Positions 53,658-64,000 of a stretch of 64,000 nucleotides of DNA are shown here, piece after piece. The position numbers and the translations under genes are program-made. Below the pieces are notes generated by a model. The model did not search any database, was not told where the DNA came from, and worked only from the letters and a program-made list of their open reading frames with translations. Position 1 is the first letter of the stretch; every line of letters begins with the position of its first letter. Source of the DNA: Flavobacteriia bacterium (GTDB lineage: Bacteria; Bacteroidota; Bacteroidia; Flavobacteriales_D; Crocinitomicaceae); contig CANFHU010000004.1 of assembly GCA_947446925.1 (NCBI GenBank), positions 62,001-126,000 of the forward strand, in the 5' to 3' direction.

Positions 53658-53691
53658 AAAACCCAGTAAACACTGTGTGTTCACTGGGTTT
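53658..53691 (-). terminator. Terminator downstream of the tRNA-Asn fragment
   Basis: On the minus strand AAACCCAGTGAACAC and GTGTTTACTGGGTTT pair over 15 bp (one G-T wobble) with an ACA loop, then TTTTCTGC. It begins 6 nt after the tRNA fragment's 3' end, as expected for the terminator of the original tRNA transcript. Confidence 0.75.
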
Positions 53692-53697
53692 CTCTAG

Positions 53698-53739
53698 CGC
53701 TCTCTCCTGGGCTCGAACCAGGGACCCTCTGATTAACAG
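53698..53739 (-). other. 3' fragment of tRNA-Asn: attachment-site remnant
   Basis: On the minus strand, in order: CTGTTAA (anticodon loop, GTT = Asn), TCAGA (3' anticodon stem), GGGTC (variable loop), CCTGG-TTCGAGC-CCAGG (complete T-arm), AGAGAGC (3' acceptor strand), G (discriminator). The parts that should precede it, namely the 5' anticodon stem TCTGA, the D-arm and the acceptor GCTCTCT, are absent. The similarity ends at the start of the anticodon loop. Such a cut-off 3' half is the usual mark left at one end by integration into a tRNA gene. The intact tRNA should be at the other end, to the right of the window. Confidence 0.8.
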
Positions 53740-53814
53740 AGGTTAAAACGTTAAAATTATAGCCTAACAATCAGAATGTTAACTTTTTTTATTTGTACAA
53801 AAGTATGCATTTTT

Positions 53815-53828
53815 GTGCATTTATGCAC
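53815..53828. repeat. Palindrome just inside the element's left end
   Basis: GTGCAT TT ATGCAC is a 14-nt inverted repeat with 6-bp arms. Related TGCAT and GTGCAC sequences flank it (ATGCATTTTT before, AAGTGCAC after). It lies about 75 nt inside the attachment fragment and could be an arm-type integrase or directionality-factor site. Confidence 0.4.
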
Positions 53829-53842
53829 CTATTAAGTGCACT

Positions 53843-54607
53843 CTAAATTTCTTTTTTCCCAACCACTATTAACTCTTCCACAAGCTTGTAAATTTGAGTA
53901 GAAGGAACCCTCATATGTAATGGTAAATTCTTTTCATTAAAATATTCATCTATTTTTTTTGCACGTGTGATAGCTTGTTTTGTTTGTTTGATTATGTGTG
54001 GAATTACAATATTGCTGAAATTCTTTTTAGATTTCAAGTCTTTTTTATAACTAAATGTATCAAACAGTTCTCTGATTTTAGATAAATTACCTTCTGGATT
54101 TTCTACGTTTTTAAAAATATTTGTTAACTGATTATAGTAATAGTCTCTCGATTTTACTTCAAAATTTTCAGTATCTATACTTTCAAAATGTAGTAATATC
54201 CACAATTCAAATGCATCATTACTCCAAGCTGTGTTTATGTTATATTTTTCAGCTTTTTCTATAGATGTATTAAATTCTATATCTGAAGGATAAATATTGT
54301 CATATGACTCGATTTGGTGATTTTTATCTCTATCATAAACACTCCAAATAATTATATCATTGTTTATTCTTGTAAGTTCTGAATCAATATATTTCATGAT
54401 ATTATTATCTAGACAATATTTTATTGTTCTAGTTAAATTATCATTCATACTTTTTTGACCTCTTATAAGATTGATTTTTATCAATGGGGTTTCAAAGTAT
54501 TTAATATAATCTGGTTCACTATTTTCATCTTCACAAAAAATCAGATAAGTTGGCAATGAATCAATTTCTCTATCATCATTAGATTTATACTCCCAAGGTT
54601 CTAACAT
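53843..54607 (-). CDS. RloB-like protein (Toprim-type nuclease candidate)
   Basis: A 254-residue protein of the RloB family. It has LIFCEDENSEPDYIKYF (the family's CEGExTExxYF motif), SVYDRDKNHQ (D-x-D) and AWSNDAFELWILLHF (SNxxFELWLLLHF). These acidic residues suggest a Toprim-like metal site. RloB pairs with RloA in restriction-linked loci; the AbiL abortive-infection system (AbiLi/AbiLii) and the PARIS pair AriA/AriB have the same kind of partnership. It follows the ATPase gene by 2 nt and is the outermost gene at this end of the element. Confidence 0.88.
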   Translation of the reverse strand: MLEPWEYKSNDDREIDSLPTYLIFCEDENSEPDYIKYFETPLIKINLIRGQKSMNDNLTRTIKYCLDNNIMKYIDSELTRINNDIIIWSVYDRDKNHQIESYDNIYPSDIEFNTSIEKAEKYNINTAWSNDAFELWILLHFESIDTENFEVKSRDYYYNQLTNIFKNVENPEGNLSKIRELFDTFSYKKDLKSKKNFSNIVIPHIIKQTKQAITRAKKIDEYFNEKNLPLHMRVPSTQIYKLVEELIVVGKKEI

Positions 54608-54609
54608 AA

Positions 54610-55908
54610 TTAATCGATTAAATCATTGTGAAAGGTTCCCAAAATAGGTAGTCCCCCATAAAAACCAGCTAAATATTGTCTTGCGAAATCCGCATCGTTT
54701 CTTATACCTTTTAAGTCCGCTAATGAATATAATCTTGTCGCATCTTGATTATCTTTTTCAGTAAAATATACTTGGTCTCTCCTTAATAATGATGGGTTTA
54801 ATAAGTTTGTATCATGACTTGTAAATAATATTTGTACCCCAGCTTTGTTTATTAATGGGTTATTAAATAATTTGATTAATTGAATTACTAGTGAAGGATG
54901 AAAATTACTATCTAATTCATCAATTACTATTAATCCACTTGTTTTAAGATTAAAAGCATGAATCAATAATCCAGAAATATCAAATATTTTTTTGGTTCCT
55001 TCAGATTCCGTATACATTAAATTCAATGTTGCATACTCATTATTTATGGAATTAATTTTTTTTGTTAGTGAAATTTTATTTTGAGGCACAACTCTTTTCT
55101 TATGTAACTCATCGTCTTTTATTAATGATATATCAGAATAATTTAACTGAAATTCTGATAAAAATTGTAATAATTTTTCTTTACCACTATCTAAACCTTC
55201 AATCAAATTAATTGTATGAAATCTAAAAGATTCTATTCCGTTCCTATAATTTGAAATCATATATCCACCTAGATAATTTCTAATTTTTGAACAAATACCT
55301 TCTCTATCATATGATGCAACGTGTGTTAAATAAAGACTATGTTTGTATTCTAATTCTGGGATTAATTTTTCTGTAGATAAGTTATCATTTTCAAGTTTTA
55401 AATCTTTTCTAATAAAATATTTTACTTGATTAGTTTCTTTCGGACCATATAGCCATTCATTTGTTATTATTTCATTACTTTCTGCTTGTTGGCTATTTGA
55501 TTCTATTTGATTTTTGATTTTATAATTACTCTTTCTGACAGTAAAACCATATCTATATTTTTTACCTTCAAGTAATATCGTAATTTGAAAAAATGAATCT
55601 GTTTCATTAAAATTTTCTTGAAATAGGTATGGGTCTGCTAAGTTTGACAATCTAGAAACTGGACTAGGTAAATCAGAGATAGCGTTATAAAAATATTCTA
55701 AAGCTCTTATAATATTACTTTTTCCACTTGCATTTGCACCATATATTCCAACTGTTTTTAATAATCTGAAATTTTCTTTTTCAACAATATTATTCAAATC
55801 GGTATCTGGAAATTTTTCTTGATTACTGTCTAATTTTGTTGCAATAAAACTAATTGTTTGTAAGTCTTTTATTGACCTAAAATTTTTAACGCTAAAATCT
55901 ATTATCAT
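54610..55908 (-). CDS. RloA-like AAA/ABC-type ATPase
   Basis: A 432-residue SMC/ABC-like ATPase of the AAA_15/AAA_21 type: IIDFSVKNFRSIKDLQTISF at the start, Walker A GANASGKS at 57-64, the Walker B region GLIVIDELDSNFHPSLVIQL near 330, the switch stretch VQILFTSHDTNLL and a C-terminal arginine-rich helix. Such ATPases act as sensors that gate a nuclease partner. It directly precedes the RloB-like gene. The ATPase/RloB pairing supports a phage-defence role; specificity is unknown. Confidence 0.9.
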   Translation of the reverse strand: MIIDFSVKNFRSIKDLQTISFIATKLDSNQEKFPDTDLNNIVEKENFRLLKTVGIYGANASGKSNIIRALEYFYNAISDLPSPVSRLSNLADPYLFQENFNETDSFFQITILLEGKKYRYGFTVRKSNYKIKNQIESNSQQAESNEIITNEWLYGPKETNQVKYFIRKDLKLENDNLSTEKLIPELEYKHSLYLTHVASYDREGICSKIRNYLGGYMISNYRNGIESFRFHTINLIEGLDSGKEKLLQFLSEFQLNYSDISLIKDDELHKKRVVPQNKISLTKKINSINNEYATLNLMYTESEGTKKIFDISGLLIHAFNLKTSGLIVIDELDSNFHPSLVIQLIKLFNNPLINKAGVQILFTSHDTNLLNPSLLRRDQVYFTEKDNQDATRLYSLADLKGIRNDADFARQYLAGFYGGLPILGTFHNDLID

Positions 55909-56035
55909 GACTTTTGTACTTTATAAACAAAAACTAGGATAAAATTAAGATAATTTTCAGTTTTATTTTAATTTTTGTAAAATATTGTCAAATATTAAAA
56001 TAAAACATCAAATTGTGTTGTAGTTTAGTTTTTTA

Positions 56036-56197
56036 TCAAGATAATTGCTGAATCTTTAATCTGATTTCAGCAATTTCTTTTTCTAACCTTTTCTTCCTCA
56101 ACTTTTTCTCCAATCGTTCTCGCTCATCTGGAGTTCTTGCAATTGTGATTTGTTGTGATATAATGTGAATCTGTTGGTCATATTCTTGTGGCGTCAT
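56036..56197 (-). CDS. Small basic coiled-coil protein
   Basis: A 53-residue frame starting ATG 56197: MTPQEYDQQIHIISQQITIA followed by RTPDERERLEKKLRKKRLEK and EIAEIRLKIQQLS. Nearly all of it should be one charged helix with heptad spacing, i.e. a coiled coil. No family recognised. It lies between the helicase/polymerase-like gene and the RloA-like gene on the same strand. Reading frame and amphipathic pattern support a real gene, but homologues would be needed to confirm. Confidence 0.6.
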   Translation of the reverse strand: MTPQEYDQQIHIISQQITIARTPDERERLEKKLRKKRLEKEIAEIRLKIQQLS

Positions 56198-56390
56198 ACT
56201 CTCGTTTTAATGATAAATATCTCATCAAATAACCAAACATCTAACTTTTTCAAAATAATTCGTTAAATCGAGGCTAATACTCACACATAGCATTATGTTA
56301 ATGATTATAAAGCTATGATTATGTTTAAAATCAAAAGAATAAAAGTTTGCTAATCATGGTGCAAATGGAACAAATAAAATAGCCGAAAAT

Positions 56391-56440
56391 CCAAAAAAAT
56401 ATTTTTTGGGAAATGGACCTACAAAATTGTAAGCCCATTT
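56391..56440. repeat. Two adjacent perfect-stem hairpins in the 56 kb intergenic region
   Basis: CCAAAAAA ATA TTTTTTGG (56391-56409, 8-bp arms) is followed by a nested stem AAATGG..TACAA-AA-TTGTA..CCATTT (56411-56440). A T-run follows the second. On either strand they could terminate transcription; as a pair they resemble a structured RNA. The remaining sequence to 56557 holds a G6/C5 pair (AGGGGGG near 56505, CCCCCTT near 56550) and nothing else I recognise. Confidence 0.45.
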
Positions 56441-56557
56441 TTATGGAAAATTTTAAAAGCCTATTCAAGTGCTGTATTTTACAACTTAGAAATATTGAAC
56501 ACGTTAGGGGGGTAACGATTGATTATCAATACAAAACCTCATCGAGTCCCCCTTAAA

Positions 56558-59260
56558 TTAAATAGGTTTAATTTCAAACTCACAATTTCCAATCTTTGAA
56601 TGAAGATTTTGATACATTGGAAGATTAGGAAGGAAAATAGCATCATGTAAGCGTATAGCATTTTCATCTAATCTATTCCATTCCTTGAAATCTTTTATTA
56701 CTTGTTCTTCTTTCTTGGTCATTTCTCTGTAAAATCCACCTTTTTCTTTTGACGTAATTTGGATAATTTTTTGGATTTGTTCATTTGAATAGCCACAAAT
56801 CCTAAAAAAAGCTCTCGCCTCAATTGTGTTTCTTCTGTAATCATTTAGCATCGAGTTGTAAAGTGTTTTTGCTTGACTTCTATCTACTTTTTTATTTTTC
56901 ATTATGTTTCCATATACATCTAGAGCAATGTTGCTTCCAACCATAACATCCAAAAATGTAGCAAATGCACTTTTTATGTCACACTGTAACATTTGATAAG
57001 GTGTATATCCTCGCAATTGTCTTGTAGTTTTGGTTGCTGGATTAAATACACGATTGTCACTTCTTGTAGTTTTGAATCCAAATATATGACCAGCACAAGA
57101 AATTGAAAGGAGAGAAAGAATATAGTATTTATGTCTTTCAACTTGTTTTCTAATACTATAGGTATTCATTTTGATTGTATTGCGAATTCCGTGTTTACAT
57201 TCTATCAAAGATGATTTTATGTTTGCCGCTTTATCCATAATTTGATTTATTTCTTCTTGATTATAGTGCTCAAATCCATCTAGTTTTCTTAATTTTTTCA
57301 CTATTTTTCTATTCGTATTTCTGAAAACTTCACTTGATTTTAATTGATTAGCAAACTCCTTGGATAATTTATGTAGTTTTTCTTTATCATCACTTATTAT
57401 CAAAGCCTCTACTTCAATTCCAGATATATCAGAAAGAGCTTTGATATAATCATCAATTAAACATTCACTTACAGAACTGAAGCCATGAACTATTCTTTCT
57501 GTATTGGTTGAATACTGACCATTTTCCACAAGATTTATTGCATACAAACTGTTTATGATTTGTTTAGCTTTATTGAAAGTATCATCAAAATATAGATTGC
57601 TCATTTTAGTATACATTGTATCTTCATAAACATCAATAAATTCGATTTTATTGTCGGAGTTTTTTATGATTTTTTGAGCTTTGATTTGATTACACAATGC
57701 ACCATCTTTGATTGCAATCTTTTGAATATTTTCAGAAACTCTAAATTTTGTTACCTTATCCATTTCTGTCATTTTGTTTGGATGTGCTAAATCATTTACA
57801 TCAATGAATGTTTTCACTCTTAATAAAAGTCTCTCGTATCTTTCGGGAATATAGTTGGTCAAATAATCTGAATCAGTAACAACACCTATATATGCAGCTG
57901 CCCACAATAGTAGTTGTTTTTGGTTGTAGCCATTGTAACTAGAATCATCACCTTTGATTTTGCTATAAACTTTTATCAACTCTTTCTGTAAGTAGAACTG
58001 GTCCTTGTTTTCTTGATTTATTAAATTTTGATATTTATCTCCAAACGTTGAACTAGTGCTTCTGACTTCATTTGAAGTTTCATCTACTTTAACTTCAAAA
58101 CCATATTCAGTCAACGATTTGATTAAATTAGATTGAGGATAACTTAAAGAATTATTTAGGCTTCCAAGATGAGATTGTATATTAGTAAGATAAACAGAGT
58201 TGTATTCAACCTGGTTAATCATTTTTTCAATCTCGGTGATGCCTTCGTTTTCTATTTCGTTTGAGTTATAGAAGATACTAGCTTCAATTACATTTTTTCT
58301 AATTCTACCATAAGCTTGAACTAGTTGATTTGCATTGAAATTGTCAACTTCAGAATTTTCATTCATTATAATTCCAACTGACGCATCGAATTCCAAATCG
58401 AATCCAATAAGATATTTGGTTGATAGAATAAAAACATTTGCATCTAAATCAACCATAGATTTCTCTAGTAGGTTATACTCTTTGAGAGATTTGGTTTTGA
58501 TTGCACTTGTTTTAATTGCAAGTGTTTCCCCAATCAATAGCTGAATCTTATATCCAAATTCTTCGTTGTTTATCAAGTTTTTAATCTTATTGATATCGTT
58601 AGTGAATAGGACCACTTTATTTCCTCTATCACAATTACTCTTGATGAAATTGTAATAATTATTCAGTGGTTCAATAGTTAATTGTTTCTCTCTTTTTTCC
58701 ATTCGTTTGATTGTAATAAGTTCCATACTTGTCAATATATGATTTGGAATATCAAGGTTTTTATAGGTAGGAGTTGCAGTTGAAAGTGTGAAATTTCCTC
58801 CATGCTCATTAAAGAGAATGTTATAGAATTCATTCATACTTTTTCTATAGTCACTTTCACCGTATACTTGGAATTCATCCACAAAAAATGGAATATCCAT
58901 TATCCTTTGAAATAAAGTAGAATTATTCTTTTTAAGTTCAATTATTTGTTCTGGAGTTGTGTTTAAGATAATAAATCCACCACTTCTTACTTCTTGTTCG
59001 TAATGATGCCATTTGTCTTTGGAGTTTTGATAAATGAACATTTGGTTTGATTTTCGGTCACTTTTTTGTTCTTTACCAACTATCATTCCAGCCAAAGGTG
59101 ATATTATAATCACATTTTTATCCGTTATGTTTAGGATAGAAGTTGTTCCACCTATTCCAGTATCACCTTTTACAACAAGTTTATTGTTATCGAAGTTTGT
59201 TATTATTGTGTTTGCAATTTCATCATTGCTTACGAAGTCATTAATTAAAATAGTTCTCAT
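56558..59260 (-). CDS. SF2-type helicase fused to a polymerase-like C-terminal domain
   Basis: A 900-residue protein. The N-terminal half looks like a superfamily 2 helicase: P-loop region KGDTGIGGTTSIL at 31-43, DEFQ at 128-131 (motif II), STATP at 160-164 (motif III), LSTKYLIGFDLEFDAS at 279-294 (motif V position) and QLVQAYGRIRKN at 312-323 (motif VI, QxxGRxxR). The P-loop has G-G-T-T where G-K-T/S is expected. The C-terminal 145 residues contain QCDIKSAFATFLD near 759-771 and RLHDAIFLP near 870-878, which recall polymerase motif A (D-x-K-S) and motif C (HD). The middle is unassigned. Probably a replication protein of the element; the polymerase part is inference. No neighbouring gene supplies a separate primase. 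Confidence 0.75.
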   Translation of the reverse strand: MRTILINDFVSNDEIANTIITNFDNNKLVVKGDTGIGGTTSILNITDKNVIIISPLAGMIVGKEQKSDRKSNQMFIYQNSKDKWHHYEQEVRSGGFIILNTTPEQIIELKKNNSTLFQRIMDIPFFVDEFQVYGESDYRKSMNEFYNILFNEHGGNFTLSTATPTYKNLDIPNHILTSMELITIKRMEKREKQLTIEPLNNYYNFIKSNCDRGNKVVLFTNDINKIKNLINNEEFGYKIQLLIGETLAIKTSAIKTKSLKEYNLLEKSMVDLDANVFILSTKYLIGFDLEFDASVGIIMNENSEVDNFNANQLVQAYGRIRKNVIEASIFYNSNEIENEGITEIEKMINQVEYNSVYLTNIQSHLGSLNNSLSYPQSNLIKSLTEYGFEVKVDETSNEVRSTSSTFGDKYQNLINQENKDQFYLQKELIKVYSKIKGDDSSYNGYNQKQLLLWAAAYIGVVTDSDYLTNYIPERYERLLLRVKTFIDVNDLAHPNKMTEMDKVTKFRVSENIQKIAIKDGALCNQIKAQKIIKNSDNKIEFIDVYEDTMYTKMSNLYFDDTFNKAKQIINSLYAINLVENGQYSTNTERIVHGFSSVSECLIDDYIKALSDISGIEVEALIISDDKEKLHKLSKEFANQLKSSEVFRNTNRKIVKKLRKLDGFEHYNQEEINQIMDKAANIKSSLIECKHGIRNTIKMNTYSIRKQVERHKYYILSLLSISCAGHIFGFKTTRSDNRVFNPATKTTRQLRGYTPYQMLQCDIKSAFATFLDVMVGSNIALDVYGNIMKNKKVDRSQAKTLYNSMLNDYRRNTIEARAFFRICGYSNEQIQKIIQITSKEKGGFYREMTKKEEQVIKDFKEWNRLDENAIRLHDAIFLPNLPMYQNLHSKIGNCEFEIKPI

Positions 59261-59296
59261 TTTCTTGTTTTTTATAGGTTATTATTACAATTTTTT

Positions 59297-59370
59297 TTGG
59301 TTGAGAAGGGCAACCAACCCCCTAGTTGCAAGCTAGGAGGAACCCTATACTTAAGGACATAGTTATCCTT
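59297..59370 (-). promoter_or_regulatory. Structured 5' leader of the helicase/polymerase-like gene
   Basis: In the 372-nt gap 59261-59632: a perfect 7-bp hairpin TTGGTTG AGAAGGG CAACCAA (59297-59317), a second one CCTAG-TTGCAAG-CTAGG (about 59321-59337), and AAGGA-N8-TCCTT (59353-59370). Their distance of 40-110 nt from the start codon suggests RNA folding or protein binding upstream of this gene. A 7-bp stem TGAGCGA-AAATA-TCGCTCA also occurs at 59464-59482. Confidence 0.45.
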
Positions 59371-59545
59371 TTAGCATAGTCAATTATACTATCACTTTGA
59401 TTGAAAGTAAAGCTTATTGGATACGATTCTTTATGAATCTAATTGAATTAGTGATTAAAAAAGTGAGCGAAAATATCGCTCATAAAATCAGTTAATAAAA
59501 TCACTTAAATGCATGTATATCAAATGTCTGACTATGCATATTGTG

Positions 59546-59593
59546 CTTGCCAATATTGATGTTATTATTAAAAAGATAAGGATAATTGGCAAG
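59546..59593. repeat. Inverted repeat downstream of the integrase gene
   Basis: CTTGCCAAT (59546-59554) and ATTGGCAAG (59585-59593) are a perfect 9-bp inverted repeat with a 30-nt AT-rich spacer, 40 nt after the integrase stop. Possible terminator, origin or protein-binding site. Confidence 0.5.
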
Positions 59594-59632
59594 ACTCAAC
59601 ATTAATACAAATCCACTCTTTTTAATCATATT

Positions 59633-60919
59633 TCATTCTTTAAAATATCCAAATCCTCGATTAGCAATCTCTTGTACTATCTTTCTTTTATCAATGTAGT
59701 TCTTATGAATCACGTTAGCTGTTTTTTGATATCCAGCAGCTGTTGTTAATCCAGTTTGTGTTTCAAGCTTTGTAAGAAACGTTTTTCTAAGGTGTTTGAT
59801 GCTGATATTTTTAGGAACACCAGCTTTATCTCTAAAGAAAGTGAAAGAATGACTCATTTGTTTCGTTACCGTATTCCTACTAAGGTTTTCTTCTTCATCA
59901 AGAATGTATTTATCACTATTTATGTGTTCTTTATAGTTTAAACGATTAAACAAATCTTCTAATTCTGGAGTGATTGGAATGTATACTATCTTTTTTTCTC
60001 TTGTAGAATCCAAATTATGTGTTCTTTCAAACTTCAAATCAGTACCTTCAAGATAAGCCATTCTTCCGTCTGGATGAAATTTTAGGTCTGAATACTTGAA
60101 TATTGCAATTTCTTCCAATCTCATTCCAGTGTATGCAGCCAGCTCAATACTAGTTCTAATGTATGGTCTAAACATATTTTTCTTCACGCCATTTTTATAA
60201 ACTTTGATGTTTGGTTCATTTGAAATCTCATCAATCTTATTAAGAATTTTAGTTAAGTCATCATCTTCAACACTTCTTGGGTCTGGATTCTCATATTTCA
60301 ATTTGATTTTCTTAACTAAATTCGGAATCACATATTCTTTTTCGTTGATTAAAAAGTTATAGAAATTCTTTAAAGCACGAATATTATGGTTGTATGTTGT
60401 TGCTTTATCTGTCAATATCAAAAGATATTCAACATATTCACCAATGATATATTTGTTCATTTCATAGATGGTGAATTTATTGAGATTGTATCCACTTCTT
60501 CCAATAAAATCAACCATCCGTTGAACATAACCAATACATTCTTTAATGTACTTATCTGTTCTAATCTTTTGCTCGTGTTTTGGAACATCCACATTTTCTA
60601 ACCAATCCCCAAACATCAAAACACAATCAGTTATTAAATCGTGTTTTACTACCTTCTTTTGTTTTGGAATTACAATAGATATTGGGTTCGCCAATTCTTC
60701 TTTAAAATCTAATAGTTCTTTTACAGCTTCATCATATTCCAACGATTTTAAATCTTTGGTTTTACGTCCTCCATTTATCGTAATTACAGCTTTGTATCGC
60801 TGTTTTTCAATAGGATGATTACAACCTTTGTATTCAACATTTGAAATTTCAATTTGCTTTCCACACTTCTTGCAAACGATGTGCAAGCCTTGGAATTTTT
60901 TATACTTAAGTTTTTTCAT
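59633..60919 (-). CDS. Tyrosine recombinase (integrase) with N-terminal zinc-finger
   Basis: A 428-residue site-specific recombinase. The N-terminus has a C-x2-C..C-x-H group (HIVCKKCGKQIE, YKGCNH) before an arm-binding segment, then a SAM-like core-binding domain (about 105-215), and the catalytic domain: Arg in AAYTGMRLEEIAIF, a K-H-L-R motif in ISIKHLRKTFLTKL, and the nucleophile Tyr in VIHKNYIDKR. In place of the common H-x-x-R the first residue is Lys, and the second His/Trp position appears to be Tyr (AGYQ). It should catalyse integration and excision of the element at tRNA-Asn. Confidence 0.9.
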   Translation of the reverse strand: MKKLKYKKFQGLHIVCKKCGKQIEISNVEYKGCNHPIEKQRYKAVITINGGRKTKDLKSLEYDEAVKELLDFKEELANPISIVIPKQKKVVKHDLITDCVLMFGDWLENVDVPKHEQKIRTDKYIKECIGYVQRMVDFIGRSGYNLNKFTIYEMNKYIIGEYVEYLLILTDKATTYNHNIRALKNFYNFLINEKEYVIPNLVKKIKLKYENPDPRSVEDDDLTKILNKIDEISNEPNIKVYKNGVKKNMFRPYIRTSIELAAYTGMRLEEIAIFKYSDLKFHPDGRMAYLEGTDLKFERTHNLDSTREKKIVYIPITPELEDLFNRLNYKEHINSDKYILDEEENLSRNTVTKQMSHSFTFFRDKAGVPKNISIKHLRKTFLTKLETQTGLTTAAGYQKTANVIHKNYIDKRKIVQEIANRGFGYFKE

Positions 60920-60956
60920 TTTACTTGTTTGTTAATGCGAGTGTAACTCATTTATA

Positions 60957-61295
60957 TTACTTATTCAAAAATTTACTTGTTATTTTCCCTTTTGGTATAT
61001 AACTGGACTTGGAACGTGTCGAAACAGTAGACATTTCTAACATCTTGAATAGCTCATCTTTGTTATATGCTTCGTAGTAATCTATCCAACCATCTCGATA
61101 CTTTGCTTTTAATTTCAAAATCAAGGGACTATCATATGCCAAATCAAAATCGTTTTCATATACAAATTCACCCGATGAATCTTTGAACATTTGGAGATGG
61201 TTTTTTTTGCACCATCTACTAATTGTTCTTTTGTCTGTTCTATGAATCAATTCTCCGATTGATTTCAAATAGATTCTATTTATAAAAAAATACAT
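60957..61295 (-). CDS. Small putative DNA-binding (HTH) protein
   Basis: A 112-residue protein. The first 40 residues look like a helix-turn-helix (IGELIHRTDKRTISRWCKKN) of the excisionase/MerR kind, followed by FVYENDFDLAYDSPLILKLK and a Ser/Lys-rich tail. It lies 37 nt before the integrase gene and 9 nt after the previous gene, so it may be the recombination directionality factor. Family not certain. Confidence 0.6.
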   Translation of the reverse strand: MYFFINRIYLKSIGELIHRTDKRTISRWCKKNHLQMFKDSSGEFVYENDFDLAYDSPLILKLKAKYRDGWIDYYEAYNKDELFKMLEMSTVSTRSKSSYIPKGKITSKFLNK

Positions 61296-61304
61296 CTTGA
61301 TTGT

Positions 61305-61640
61305 TTAGATACATAAATAAATGATTTTATCACTTCCTTCATATTTACATAATTCAAACTCTCTTAAAATGAGATTTTCATAGTCATCAATTGTAATATC
61401 AGTTATATATCCCTCATGATTACCCATTATAATATTTACTCTTATACAAATACTATCATCATAATTTTTATGAAGCATAACGTGACCGACTGGGTAGTAA
61501 TGATTTTCATCATCTATTATAATACCTTCATTAATGATTTCTTCTATGTCGATTGTTCTATTAAAATCTTCAATTTCCGAGTTCATATTGATTTCTATCA
61601 GTTCTTTCAGAGTAACTGATTTTAAAGTTTTTATTACCAT
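61305..61640 (-). CDS. Unknown protein of the element
   Basis: A 111-residue acidic protein (MVIKTLKSVTLKELIEINMN, IIIDDENHYYPVGHVMLHKN). No recognised domain, signal peptide or membrane segment. It is the first of a three-gene run with the HTH and integrase genes, and its leader contains one of the three palindromes described at 61725. Confidence 0.65.
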   Translation of the reverse strand: MVIKTLKSVTLKELIEINMNSEIEDFNRTIDIEEIINEGIIIDDENHYYPVGHVMLHKNYDDSICIRVNIIMGNHEGYITDITIDDYENLILREFELCKYEGSDKIIYLCI

Positions 61641-61724
61641 TTATTTGTTTTTTTAAGGTTAATAGGATTCTAGTCCATTCAAAAATGGATATTCTAGTTC
61701 CCGATAAATTATTGTGTTTTTTTG

Positions 61725-61742
61725 CTTATCTGAATTGATAAG
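61725..61742. promoter_or_regulatory. 18-nt palindrome, copy 1 of 3
   Basis: CTTATCTGAATTGATAAG, with 6-bp arms, lies 85 nt before the start codon of the 61305-61640 gene. The other copies are at 62291 and 63224. Consensus CTTAT-N8-ATAAG. Downstream leader sequence is only weakly similar to the other copies. Confidence 0.6.
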
Positions 61743-61770
61743 ACTTTATTTTGATTTTGTAAAAATCTAA

Positions 61771-62202
61771 TTACATCTTGAATTTTTTATTCAAGCAAAG
61801 ACAAAATCCATAGAAGTTTGAAATTTCGTCAAATGGGTCGTTTGAATTTCTATGATATTCTTCCCCATTTAAGCTCACCACATTGTCTGTAACCAATACT
61901 ATCTCTAAATTGGTATGGTAAAACGCACCAGCTCTATTTGCAATATCTATCATGCAATTCAAATTGAATCTTTCTTTGTTGTCACCTTCAAAGATGGTGT
62001 CCAAATATTCAGAATACAAATTATCCAATATCCACTCGTGTGTTTTTTCCTTATTGATAAGTTTGTTTCTTGTATCAATGATTTTTTCAATTTCATTTAG
62101 GTCATTTTCCTCTAATAGAAATTTAACTTCTGCTACAATGTTTTTGAAGTCTACTCCATTTTTGAACATTGCTTTTACTGTCTTTTTTTGATAATTTTTC
62201 AT
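61771..62202 (-). CDS. Unknown protein of the element
   Basis: A 143-residue protein (MKNYQKKTVKAMFKNGVDFK, then an acidic helix-rich middle, ending ISNFYGFCLCLNKKFKM). No recognised domain. It has its own leader with a CTTAT-N8-ATAAG palindrome 89 nt upstream. Confidence 0.65.
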   Translation of the reverse strand: MKNYQKKTVKAMFKNGVDFKNIVAEVKFLLEENDLNEIEKIIDTRNKLINKEKTHEWILDNLYSEYLDTIFEGDNKERFNLNCMIDIANRAGAFYHTNLEIVLVTDNVVSLNGEEYHRNSNDPFDEISNFYGFCLCLNKKFKM

Positions 62203-62290
62203 GTGTGTTTTGATTTTAAAGTTTAAACAATATGATTCTACTCAACTTCATTGTTGATTTTTTTGAACCATAAAATATTTGATTGTTTTA

Positions 62291-62308
62291 CTTATTCGAT
62301 TGAATAAG
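62291..62308. promoter_or_regulatory. 18-nt palindrome, copy 2 of 3
   Basis: CTTATTCGATTGAATAAG, 7-bp arms, 89 nt before the start of the 61771-62202 gene. The 100 nt following it on the minus strand matches the leader of the 62433-63134 gene (TTGAGTAGAATC, TTTAAACTTTAA). Confidence 0.68.
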
Positions 62309-62432
62309 ATTTTTAGATTTTATTGTGAATTTTGATTAAGATTTTAAGGGTTCATCTACTATTGTTCAATGAGTCCTAATTGTTTAATGATTCTATGTCA
62401 TTTTACTTGTTTTTAGAGGTTATTCACTTTGA

Positions 62433-63134
62433 TTAAGCTACATTATTTAACTTTGAAAGGGGTAATGTATTTTCAATTATTTCATAAATATCACTCATAA
62501 TTTTATCCATATCATTAATCGAATTATTCTCCAAATACTTATTAATTTCTTTCTGTGCTTTTTTTAATTCTCTATCAGTTGCAAGTCTTGTAGTCGTACA
62601 ATTATCATTTAGAACATTGTCTCCGTTTTGGGTGCCAATAGTCCATCTGAACCAAACCATTTTTTCTGACTCATTCCAATGACTAACTGAAACAAAATAT
62701 CTTTGATTAACTCTTGTTAATTCCAATATATTAACAAACTTTAATATCAGTTTTTGCATGAAATTTCTTTCTCTACTAAATTCTTTTGTAAAATACACAT
62801 ACCCTCCTTTTTGACTTGAATATGTACTTCCTTCTGGGTTATTCTTAATAAATTCCTGGTTTAATTTTTTACAAGCATTTATAAAATCTTCACCCATTTC
62901 AGTTTTTCTCCTACCAAATTCGTCACTGATAAAACTCAATGAACTATCAAATAATATTTGTTCAATCAAATTATGTTCAATTACACAGTTATGTAACTTC
63001 ATATCTAAGTTATTTGCTGCCTCAAGAACATCTAGTATCAAAGTAGCATAGATTCTTTCTTTTGGCGTAAATTTCATTTCTCTTAATAGGCAGATAATGT
63101 ATCCGTTTCTTTTTTGGTTTGCTTTAGTTCTCAT
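62433..63134 (-). CDS. Unknown protein of the element
   Basis: A 233-residue protein (MRTKANQKRNGYIICLLREM, KFTPKERIYATLILDVLEAA), with a mid-region YFVSVSHWNESEKMVWFRWT and a C-terminal helical part. It may include a winged-helix in its first half, but I cannot name a family. Leader with palindrome copy 3 lies 90 nt upstream. Confidence 0.65.
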   Translation of the reverse strand: MRTKANQKRNGYIICLLREMKFTPKERIYATLILDVLEAANNLDMKLHNCVIEHNLIEQILFDSSLSFISDEFGRRKTEMGEDFINACKKLNQEFIKNNPEGSTYSSQKGGYVYFTKEFSRERNFMQKLILKFVNILELTRVNQRYFVSVSHWNESEKMVWFRWTIGTQNGDNVLNDNCTTTRLATDRELKKAQKEINKYLENNSINDMDKIMSDIYEIIENTLPLSKLNNVA

Positions 63135-63223
63135 AATTTTTAATATTAAAGTTTAGTCAATTGTATTCCATTCAACAGAGTTGTCCATTTTTTTGGAAGT
63201 AATAATTTTTGTTTGATTTGTTG

Positions 63224-63250
63224 CTTATTCGGTTGAATAAGACGAATAAG
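63224..63250. promoter_or_regulatory. 18-nt palindrome, copy 3 of 3, plus half-site
   Basis: CTTATTCGGTTGAATAAG (63224-63241), then CGAATAAG (half-site at 63244-63250). It is 90 nt before the 62433-63134 gene. The gap 63135-63439 holds this and otherwise AT-rich sequence in which I see no gene. Confidence 0.68.
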
Positions 63251-63439
63251 ATTTCATTTAACTTTCTCTCGAAAAGTTATAATGTTTTGTTTCATATAGA
63301 AACTAAGTTGTATTTTTTTCTTTCATTGTATCATAGTTTTTAAATTAAACATTTTCAGTATAGATTATTTCTAATTGAAATATTGTTTGCTGTTTGTATG
63401 ATACAAATGTATATTGGGTCAAATTGGGGGTTGACCCTT

Positions 63440-64000
63440 TTATTTACTTTTTAGCATAACCGATTGACTTACAAGGTATTCATTCAGAGTGTTTATATCT
63501 TTGTCACTAATTTCCTTGTATGTTCTATTATGTAACTGTTTAGCATTGTCTGGATTAATCCCCATAATTAGAGCTAAAATCTTGTATTTTGACATTTGTT
63601 TATCAGTATCCAATTTAGAAATGATATCTTCAAATCCAAGTCGTTTAAATAATTCGAATCGCTGTTGAACATTTAACTTAGGTAGTCCACTTAACTGCAA
63701 ATCTTCTTCTTTGAATTCTTCTAGTTGAATCAATTTGATTTTTAAATTGTCACCAACAGCATATGTCTCATCTAAATGACCTAATTTCTTAAGTTCATTT
63801 CGAAGAAATTGTATTTTCTTCATTTTTTCTAATTGAAACAATTGTGATGTTTCTCTTGATAAAAATTTTCGATAATTAACTAATGCTAAATAATCATTAC
63901 TTTGTTCATTTAAATGGGAAAGATTAGTATCTAAATCATTATCAGATAAAAAATATTCTATTTCGTTTTTGATAAAATCCAATTCATTTGAAAATGAATT
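63440..64000 (-). CDS. Unknown protein of the element (5' truncated by window edge)
   Basis: At least 187 residues; the frame is open to the right edge, and no ATG or other preferred start is seen before it. It is helix-rich, with KMKKIQFLRNELKKLGHLDE and, near the end, KYKILALIMGINPDNAKQLH followed by YKEISDKDINTLNEYL. The last segment resembles a helix-turn-helix-like C-terminal part common in Bacteroidota mobile-element proteins, but this is a weak resemblance. Function unknown. Confidence 0.6.
   Translation of the reverse strand, partial: NSFSNELDFIKNEIEYFLSDNDLDTNLSHLNEQSNDYLALVNYRKFLSRETSQLFQLEKMKKIQFLRNELKKLGHLDETYAVGDNLKIKLIQLEEFKEEDLQLSGLPKLNVQQRFELFKRLGFEDIISKLDTDKQMSKYKILALIMGINPDNAKQLHNRTYKEISDKDINTLNEYLVSQSVMLKSK

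Follow-up and report, generated by a model that had tools for sequence, protein, structure and literature searches.

A tRNA-Asn-targeted integrative element of a Flavobacteriia bacterium encoding a helicase-like/TV-Pol-like fusion protein

A mobile element, here termed element A, was identified in a Flavobacteriia bacterium (GenBank assembly GCA_947446925.1) within a stretch of 64,000 nucleotides (hereafter the window), which corresponds to positions 62001–126000 of contig CANFHU010000004.1 (C4) of the 3.15-Mb draft genome. Element A is real, mobile and targeted to tRNA-Asn, and it encodes a 900-aa polymerase-like protein in which a region resembling superfamily 2 (SF2) helicases is followed by a domain resembling A-family polymerases and, among these, the polymerases known as TV-Pols. 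We consider it probable, with odds of roughly two in three, that A is a self-replicating integrative element of TV-Pol type that carries a new SF2–TV-Pol fusion and is copied by this protein; it probably copies itself because the helicase-like part is joined to a compact DNA-polymerase-like part. Other genomes and loci are denoted below by our own G and L numbers.

Two tandem elements in tRNA-Asn and their relatives

The left border of element A is a 42-nt tRNA-Asn 3′ half on the minus strand (window 53700–53741, C4 115700–115741), followed outside the element by a terminator-like hairpin of the host tRNA-Asn (53661–53692, minus strand); a flank of this kind also follows the intact tRNA where the site is empty in two genomes of the same genus, G326 and G157. 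A genome-wide pattern search allowing up to 3 mismatches returned three copies of this half, all on the minus strand of C4 (115700–115741 with 0 mismatches, 134229–134270 with 1 and 140172–140213 with 2), and the reversed-pattern control gave 0 matches in the genome. The further copies lie 18.5 and 24.5 kb to the right of the border repeat. Because only the last of the three halves lies in an intact tRNA-Asn(GTT) (C4 140169–140243), two elements stand in tandem in this gene, namely A (C4 115700–134228, 18.5 kb, ending 8.2 kb past the window) and B (C4 134229–140171, 5.9 kb). The arrangement fits an insertion of A first and then of B into the tRNA rebuilt by A, since a different terminator follows the middle repeat and the sequence downstream of the left repeat continues as in the empty sites. 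The original prediction, made from the sequence alone, had placed the left end at this tRNA-Asn half and its terminator and had expected both a second repeat within about 100 kb and an intact tRNA-Asn(GTT) to the right, and all three were found. It had also envisaged one integrative element that might reach far beyond the window; the element in tRNA-Asn and its continuation past the window stood, whereas one element became two and the extension proved to be 8.2 kb.

Both host flanks were compared with six loci of five genomes of the same genus. In G326 and G157 the flanks meet and share 43–44 nt of the tRNA 3′ half, which is the empty site; in G335 and G382 they match, beyond the tRNA itself, on the tRNA side only, and in G230 a different array occupies the tRNA-Asn gene. 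This array (contig C37, 8660–18891) comprises three successive tRNA-Asn 3′ halves, and no homologue of the 900-aa protein was found in it. Since three consecutive halves are thus also present in G230, the site holds arrays of other elements. Several further ends were seen at tRNA-Asn. In G346 (C18, 29556–31056), outside element A, another element ends at the same tRNA-Asn repeat and brings an arm-domain integrase of its own, and in G400 (C39, near 260; L036) a rearranged second 3′ half downstream of tRNA-Asn is apparently the decayed remnant of a border whose element has been lost. The terminator is followed, just inside the tRNA-proximal end, by a degenerate version of the tRNA-Asn 5′ half in inverted orientation (39 nt, with 85% identity to the tRNA); such copies occur at L005:9140–9190 (C4 134140–134190), in G346 (C18, after 12205 and after 29556) and in G246 (C46, 18152–18230), and are common to ends with different integrases. 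An Rfam scan returned tRNAs only.

A search with the 900-aa protein gave matches in 8 of the 399 genomes sampled from the order, the own genome counted. Matches are full-length in G346 (98% identity) and G341 (89%); in G382 the identity is 100% over 326 aa, at which point the contig ends, and in four further genomes the match is confined to the polymerase domain. The G346, G341 and G382 matches were also found as contigs of Flavobacteriales or Flavobacteriia metagenome-assembled genomes. As the original prediction would have it, these relatives carry the same tRNA-Asn border: in all three, the left end is a tRNA-Asn 3′ half plus the same end block of ~100 bp (53742–53845 in A), which is kept despite differing adjoining cargo and is presumably a recombinase-binding arm. 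The far end is visible only in G346, where an intact tRNA-Asn lies 17.4 kb away. Core genes common to A, G346 and G341, at 36–98% identity, encode the integrase, a 112-aa protein, a serine recombinase, a 104-aa protein and a methyltransferase, and G382 shows the polymerase end alone before its contig stops.

The block spanning integrase and polymerase is 96.8%, 91.4% and 99.7% identical to that of G346, G341 and G382 (over 5.3, 4.8 and 1.5 kb), and identity to the same genomes over a host segment of 3.4 kb is 78%, 78% and 90%. Element A therefore moves between species and genera, because this block is 91–99.7% identical where host genes are 78–90% identical. Outside the block, only patches are shared with G346 and G341, at 74–93%, so that A is a mosaic, and these sequence comparisons point to its recent transfer, across genera in two cases. 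The cargo between polymerase and border differs from one relative to the next: an AbiL pair in A, two C5-methyltransferases with an HNH/MTaX1 protein (type II restriction-modification) in G346 and AbiEi/AbiEii in G382. The family scan was made for the G382 genes, and G341 has genes of the same lengths together with matching end sequence.

An immobile A, decayed or passively carried, whose integrase and polymerase are leftovers and whose tandem occupancy reflects an attractive tRNA site, would suit a site at which arrays accumulate (three copies of the repeat both here and in G230), the decayed repeat copy in G400 and an integrase that is not at the element end. We give this reading hardly any credence, as the integrase and polymerase frames are intact and 89–98% identical in another genus beside the same border, and the end block has been preserved.

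The 900-aa protein and its family

The 900-aa protein (56558–59260, minus strand) was assigned from Pfam, alignments, AlphaFold and fold searches. Its N-terminal region (~residues 1–420; 58001–59260, minus strand) is SF2-helicase-like by a sub-threshold Pfam DEAD match and an alignment of four such regions, and it contains candidate helicase motifs, which read DE, STAT and QAYGRxR. Its C-terminal domain (residues 541–900; 56561–57640, minus strand) is predicted to resemble A-family polymerases and TV-Pols from a 24-row alignment, an AlphaFold model and fold searches, with D761 and D873 as candidate catalytic aspartates. In the alignment of 24 domains (G346 omitted as a near copy; domain numbering + 540 = protein numbering), R197, N200, R210, P214, D221, Y243, N266, E311, R330, H332, D333 and F355 are invariant (24/24), and an R-[LIG]-H-D motif is conserved. 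D231 is kept in 23 of 24 rows and R-x3-K in 14, including the window protein, where R254–K258 lies on modelled helix 254–266; R-x3-K is absent from the 10 rows fused to a partner of superfamily 3 (SF3) type. The model built from the domain alignment (mean pLDDT 81, pTM 0.69) places the invariant R197 in a β-hairpin (E192–194/E197–199) preceded by long helices 128–147 and 163–183; a model from the single 900-aa sequence (pLDDT 32) was not used.

The best 50 PDB rows in Foldseek and the best 50 entries in VIA were all A-family polymerases. In a viral structure library, one match, an unnamed protein of 409 aa, fell below E 0.001, and 'Putative DNA polymerase I' (403 aa, E 0.002) came next. Searches of Pfam, PHROG, NCBIfam and PDB sequences gave no credible family for the C-terminal domain: Pfam and PHROG scans of the 24 members returned scattered weak matches to unrelated families, and PDB sequence searches with the domain and with the whole 900-aa protein returned nothing credible. 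A B-family reading, prompted by the motif DIKxAFPS, which we take to resemble the B-family SLYPS motif, was dropped after the fold search. The helicase/polymerase-like protein of the original prediction was thus nearly right, in that both the helicase-like and the polymerase-like part stood, and its kind can now be given as A-family/TV-Pol-like.

Domain-profile searches matched 10 of 240 genomes sampled from the family, 2 of 395 from the class and 4 of 395 from the phylum (own genome counted in each; samples overlap) and 15 of 239 from the genus of G909; weak or fragmentary matches of G351, G509 and G1108 were dropped. The 25 loci examined comprise the window, G346, G341, G252, G361, G179, G157 and L092–L109, with G382 omitted as incomplete at its contig end. 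Judged from sequence, the helicase-like partners of the polymerase-type domains fall into at least two superfamilies. An N-terminal SF2-like partner is present in the window protein, G346, G341, G1164, G1152 and G407 (this one truncated at its beginning), and a C-terminal SF3-like partner in ten loci, where the C-terminal parts are 42–82% identical to that of G252, 9 of 10 have a Walker-type P-loop and 1 of 3 scanned gave a sub-threshold DUF5906 match. G1144 has a C-terminal SF2-like partner, and eight loci have in common a C-terminal partner region without family assignment. In a tree of 24 domains each larger group has its own supported branch (N-terminal SF2 100/96, SF3 100/100, family-less partner 98/95; G1144 aside), and the N-terminal SF2 group includes members of genera g1, g16, g9 and g127 in families f1 and f65.

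Of the 25 loci, 21 have an integrase close by (those of G252 and G179 called by likeness to Pfam-confirmed ones); the others are L096, with none found in 20 kb, and L108, L109 and G361, all at contig ends. Besides the window and G346, the retrieved stretch contains a tRNA at 13 loci. A 16–32-nt copy of the tRNA 3′ end stands just outside the integrase in seven of these (L092, L093, L100, L106, L024, L026 and L027) and L101 has a weak match of ~13 nt, and no terminal repeat was found at L094 (apart from a neighbouring tRNA-Met), L096, L097, L098 or L109. L093 is a 6.1-kb tRNA-bounded element whose open reading frames (ORFs) of at least 80 aa encode an integrase, an HTH_17 protein, a 103-aa protein and the polymerase–SF3 protein only. 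In A the core genes run 112-aa protein, integrase, polymerase, and those of G1164 and G1152 run polymerase, homologue of the 112-aa protein, integrase; the two share a cyclic gene order, which a circular intermediate would allow, and rearrangement is also possible. Near other loci, 4 of 10 proteins scanned matched PADLOC defence models (SoFic, type I methyltransferase, AriA-like ATPase and PDC-S39, at L106:6941–8035, L098:3201–5222, L097:4817–6433 and L018:12398–14170).

We propose that the tyrosine recombinase of A would insert the element at the anticodon-loop/3′ half of tRNA-Asn, so that one end keeps the host 3′ half and the tRNA is made whole again at the other. We take this integrase, and not the serine recombinase, to be the active one because it is conserved along with the border (94–98% in G341 and G346). 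Element A would then excise as a circle and be copied by the 900-aa protein, with the SF2-like region opening the duplex or moving along it and the fused TV-Pol-type domain synthesising DNA and perhaps also priming, by analogy with published TV-Pols and with CCPol and its partner MP (see below); the exchangeable anti-phage genes at the element ends would benefit the host. We put forward more tentatively, as a possibility that we doubt more than we believe, that the protein is a one-polypeptide replisome in the domain order of DNA polymerase theta (Pol theta), in which an SF2-type motor, fused once to a TV-Pol-type domain and since spread over four genera and two families, would open, prime and copy the circle; given a P-loop without the usual lysine, the motor would be either an unusual ATPase or a DNA-gripping scaffold.

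Several observations weigh against a self-replicating A. In addition to the patchy sharing outside the integrase–polymerase block, the integrase sits 5.9 kb inside the element instead of at its end, no replication origin and no clear iterons were found, and the other SF2-type loci G1164 and G1152 gave no terminal repeat. The DEAD match (residues 22–169) has an E-value of 2e-4 and 21.7 bits against a cut-off of 26, with sub-threshold matches also in G346, G1164 and G1152, and a profile of the N-terminal region had no credible match among PDB sequences. The P-loop reads GDTGIGGTT, without the Walker A lysine, in five of five proteins showing the region (the four aligned, plus G346: window, G346, G341, G1164 and G1152). 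The SF2-like region may therefore be no active motor. For the polymerase domain, no Foldseek match in the PDB reached E ≤ 0.001 (best E 0.016, TM-scores 0.14–0.37), the leading VIA scores (9au5, Pol theta, Z 10.5, rmsd 6.0, 245 aligned; T7 polymerase, Z 10.3) are to be read against best Z values of 7–8 that are typical without a true match and an rmsd of ~6, and hhalign of the domain profile against 26 PolA sequences was negative (probability 1.6), its sole short alignment falling on the R-x3-K helix.

The absent Walker A lysine and the lack of a visible origin would suit a non-replicative role, in which the helicase–polymerase protein is defence or repair cargo acting on invading or broken DNA (for example in Pol theta-like end joining) and the integrase serves to move a defence island. 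A is indeed rich in defence genes and contains UmuD/UmuC-like repair genes, and the domain order of the protein resembles that of Pol theta. However, the 900-aa protein is constant while the adjoining cargo varies in G346, G341 and G382, L093 consists almost entirely of polymerase and integrase, and related elements swap helicase partners, as is also documented for TV-Pols and for further replication modules (PMC2579912). We regard a defence or repair role as unlikely and prefer that of a replication protein.

At least 25 loci in Bacteroidota genomes, several of them bounded by tRNA repeats and with at least two kinds of helicase-like partner and one without family assignment, make a natural set for asking how a minimal TV-Pol core primes and copies DNA. 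The SF2-type fusion places putative motor and polymerase in a single purifiable protein, and the 6.1-kb L093 element is near a minimal unit for testing island replication. These islands also carry anti-phage genes between genera.

Gene content of elements A and B

The genes of A described here for the window are on the minus strand. Next to the left border are the exchangeable defence genes, an RloB/AbiLii-like gene (53843–54607; PF13707 6e-28, PADLOC AbiLii 8e-23) and an RloA/AbiLi-like AAA ATPase gene (54610–55908; PF13304 3e-29, PADLOC AbiLi 5e-80). Beyond the gene of the 900-aa protein lie those of the tyrosine integrase (59633–60919; PF00589 3e-6, PHROG integrase 9e-20), the 112-aa conserved core protein (60957–61295; 91–92% identical in G341 and G346, 43–53% in G1164 and G1152), a 111-aa protein (61305–61640; no Pfam or PHROG match), a 143-aa protein (61771–62202; 90% identical homologue in G341), a 233-aa protein (62433–63134; 30% identity over 99 aa in G346) and a 332-aa protein without family assignment (63440–64000), an ORF whose start is beyond the window at C4 126438; the 112-, 143- and 233-aa proteins have no Pfam match. 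Two leaders resemble each other (62208–62309 and 63138–63242, minus strand), with 71% identity over 82 nt (62208–62289 against 63138–63219) and a 22-nt block at 91%. Near-identical palindrome-like CTTATTC..GAATAAG blocks stand at 62288–62309 and 63221–63242, ahead of two family-less genes, and are possibly operators of an element regulator. The integrase, the RloAB-like pair and the shared leaders had been read in the same way by the original prediction, and its 'small HTH protein' (helix-turn-helix), which is the 112-aa protein, found no support in an HTH match in Pfam. From the window edge to C4 134228, A encodes a serine recombinase, a 104-aa protein without family assignment, a C5-cytosine methyltransferase, UmuD-like (S24 peptidase) and UmuC-like proteins, a 191-aa protein and a 759-aa GmrSD-N (DUF262) protein with a weak HEPN match.

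As also anticipated, no relaxase, conjugation or virion family was matched by Pfam in the scanned ORFs of A (those of at least ~100 aa; shorter ones, such as one of 53 aa, lay outside the scan). Several proteins of A have no family assignment, which limits this negative as regards an integrative conjugative or mobilizable element. The same scan bears on whether A is a phage satellite (of phage-inducible chromosomal island or P4-like type) that excises and replicates by itself and is packaged by a helper phage. Satellites have such a size, an integrase with a replication protein, a tRNA site and defence cargo, so that the anatomy of A would match. Defence hotspots are described in P2 and P4 (PMC9122126). 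Against a satellite stands the absence of virion or packaging matches in the scanned ORFs, although satellites often have no virion genes. The 900-aa protein also had no relative in IMG/VR, phage records or plasmids, and the domain profiles had no match in IMG/VR, in scans that use short peptide patterns and are not exhaustive. The SF3-type relatives match phages and plasmids through the helicase half only, and a member with the family-less partner gave one weak phage match (E 0.2) and no plasmid match. We consider a satellite improbable, more so than a defence or repair role.

Element B (L005:9229–15171) is unrelated to A and encodes RadC, a weak-SHOCT protein, a leucine-rich repeat protein and a 323-aa protein; its own integrase, which has an arm-binding domain, adjoins the intact tRNA-Asn. 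The host chromosome encodes its own Pol I (C4 150982–152112).

Comparison with known systems

Mobile elements with TV-Pols were described in 2008 by Iyer, Abhiman and Aravind (PMC2579912), who predicted TV-Pols to be primase-polymerases of transposons and viruses and whose alignment includes members of the Flavobacteriales. Kinship is judged here from published feature descriptions rather than sequence to sequence. Shared with TV-Pols are a compact polymerase core that lacks nuclease domains and is either fused to a helicase or encoded next to one; a β-hairpin with a conserved arginine (R197, 24/24); two conserved aspartates (D221 and D333, 24/24), for which catalysis is predicted, in a palm that is RRM-like in TV-Pols and resembles that of A-family polymerases here; and a fingers aspartate (D231) with R-x3-K, as seen in the window protein. 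The published thumb consists of two antiparallel helices, and in the model two long helices (128–147 and 163–183) precede the hairpin. Like the published elements, A has an integrase and a resolvase nearby (integrase and serine recombinase in A), with restriction-modification genes near. The SF3-fused relatives look like the published fusion to a D5-like helicase. In contrast, the N-terminal SF2-like partner of the window protein is neither of the two fusion partners named in that paper, a D5-like helicase at the C-terminus and an all-helical domain at the N-terminus; standalone TV-Pols exist, so that a partner is not required. The term 'undescribed', used in the original prediction, consequently fits only this lineage and the SF2–TV-Pol fusion, because the class of TV-Pol mobile elements was described in 2008.

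CCPol of SCCmec was in 2020, to its authors' knowledge, the sole biochemically characterised TV-Pol (PMC7581432). CCPol–MP–Cch2 likewise combines a nuclease-less A-family polymerase, a helicase and a site-specific recombinase in an integrative element (PMC7581432) and is the proposed replicator of the excised element (PMC7581432; PolA–SSB primases, PMC10061031). The partner MP, an OB-fold single-stranded DNA-binding protein (SSB), confers primase activity (PMC7581432, PMC10061031). This module, known from Bacillota, differs in having a separate helicase of D5/Primase_Cterm type, whereas helicase-like region and polymerase are one protein here. Helicase and DNA polymerase also share one polypeptide in GP55, the 'four-in-one' replicase of lactococcal phage 1706, but this phage-borne protein has an archaeo-eukaryotic primase and a B-family polymerase (PMC12205980).

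The order of an N-terminal SF2 helicase and a C-terminal A-family polymerase is that of Pol theta, the top structural match in VIA. PDB sequence searches with the protein, the domain and N-terminal profiles gave no match to Pol theta, and the window protein differs in its very compact polymerase, the absent Walker A lysine and its place in a mobile element rather than a chromosomal repair gene; the likeness is one of analogy only. Pipolins integrate at tRNA genes. They share with A an integrative layout with an own DNA polymerase and a tyrosine recombinase (PMC7385651, PMC9710591), and to this extent the pipolin-like layout of the original prediction holds, but their polymerase is the B-family piPolB, in contrast to the A-family/TV-Pol-like fold and HD motif found here. 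No description of an SF2–TV-Pol fusion was found in the literature searched, and the main text of a 2026 survey of bacterial polymerases (PMC12926913) has 0 uses of 'helicase' and 0 of 'TV-Pol'. Within the literature searched, the fusion of an N-terminal SF2-like region to a TV-Pol-like domain is a new architecture, and element A is pipolin-like in layout and Pol theta-like in domain order, and a member of neither.

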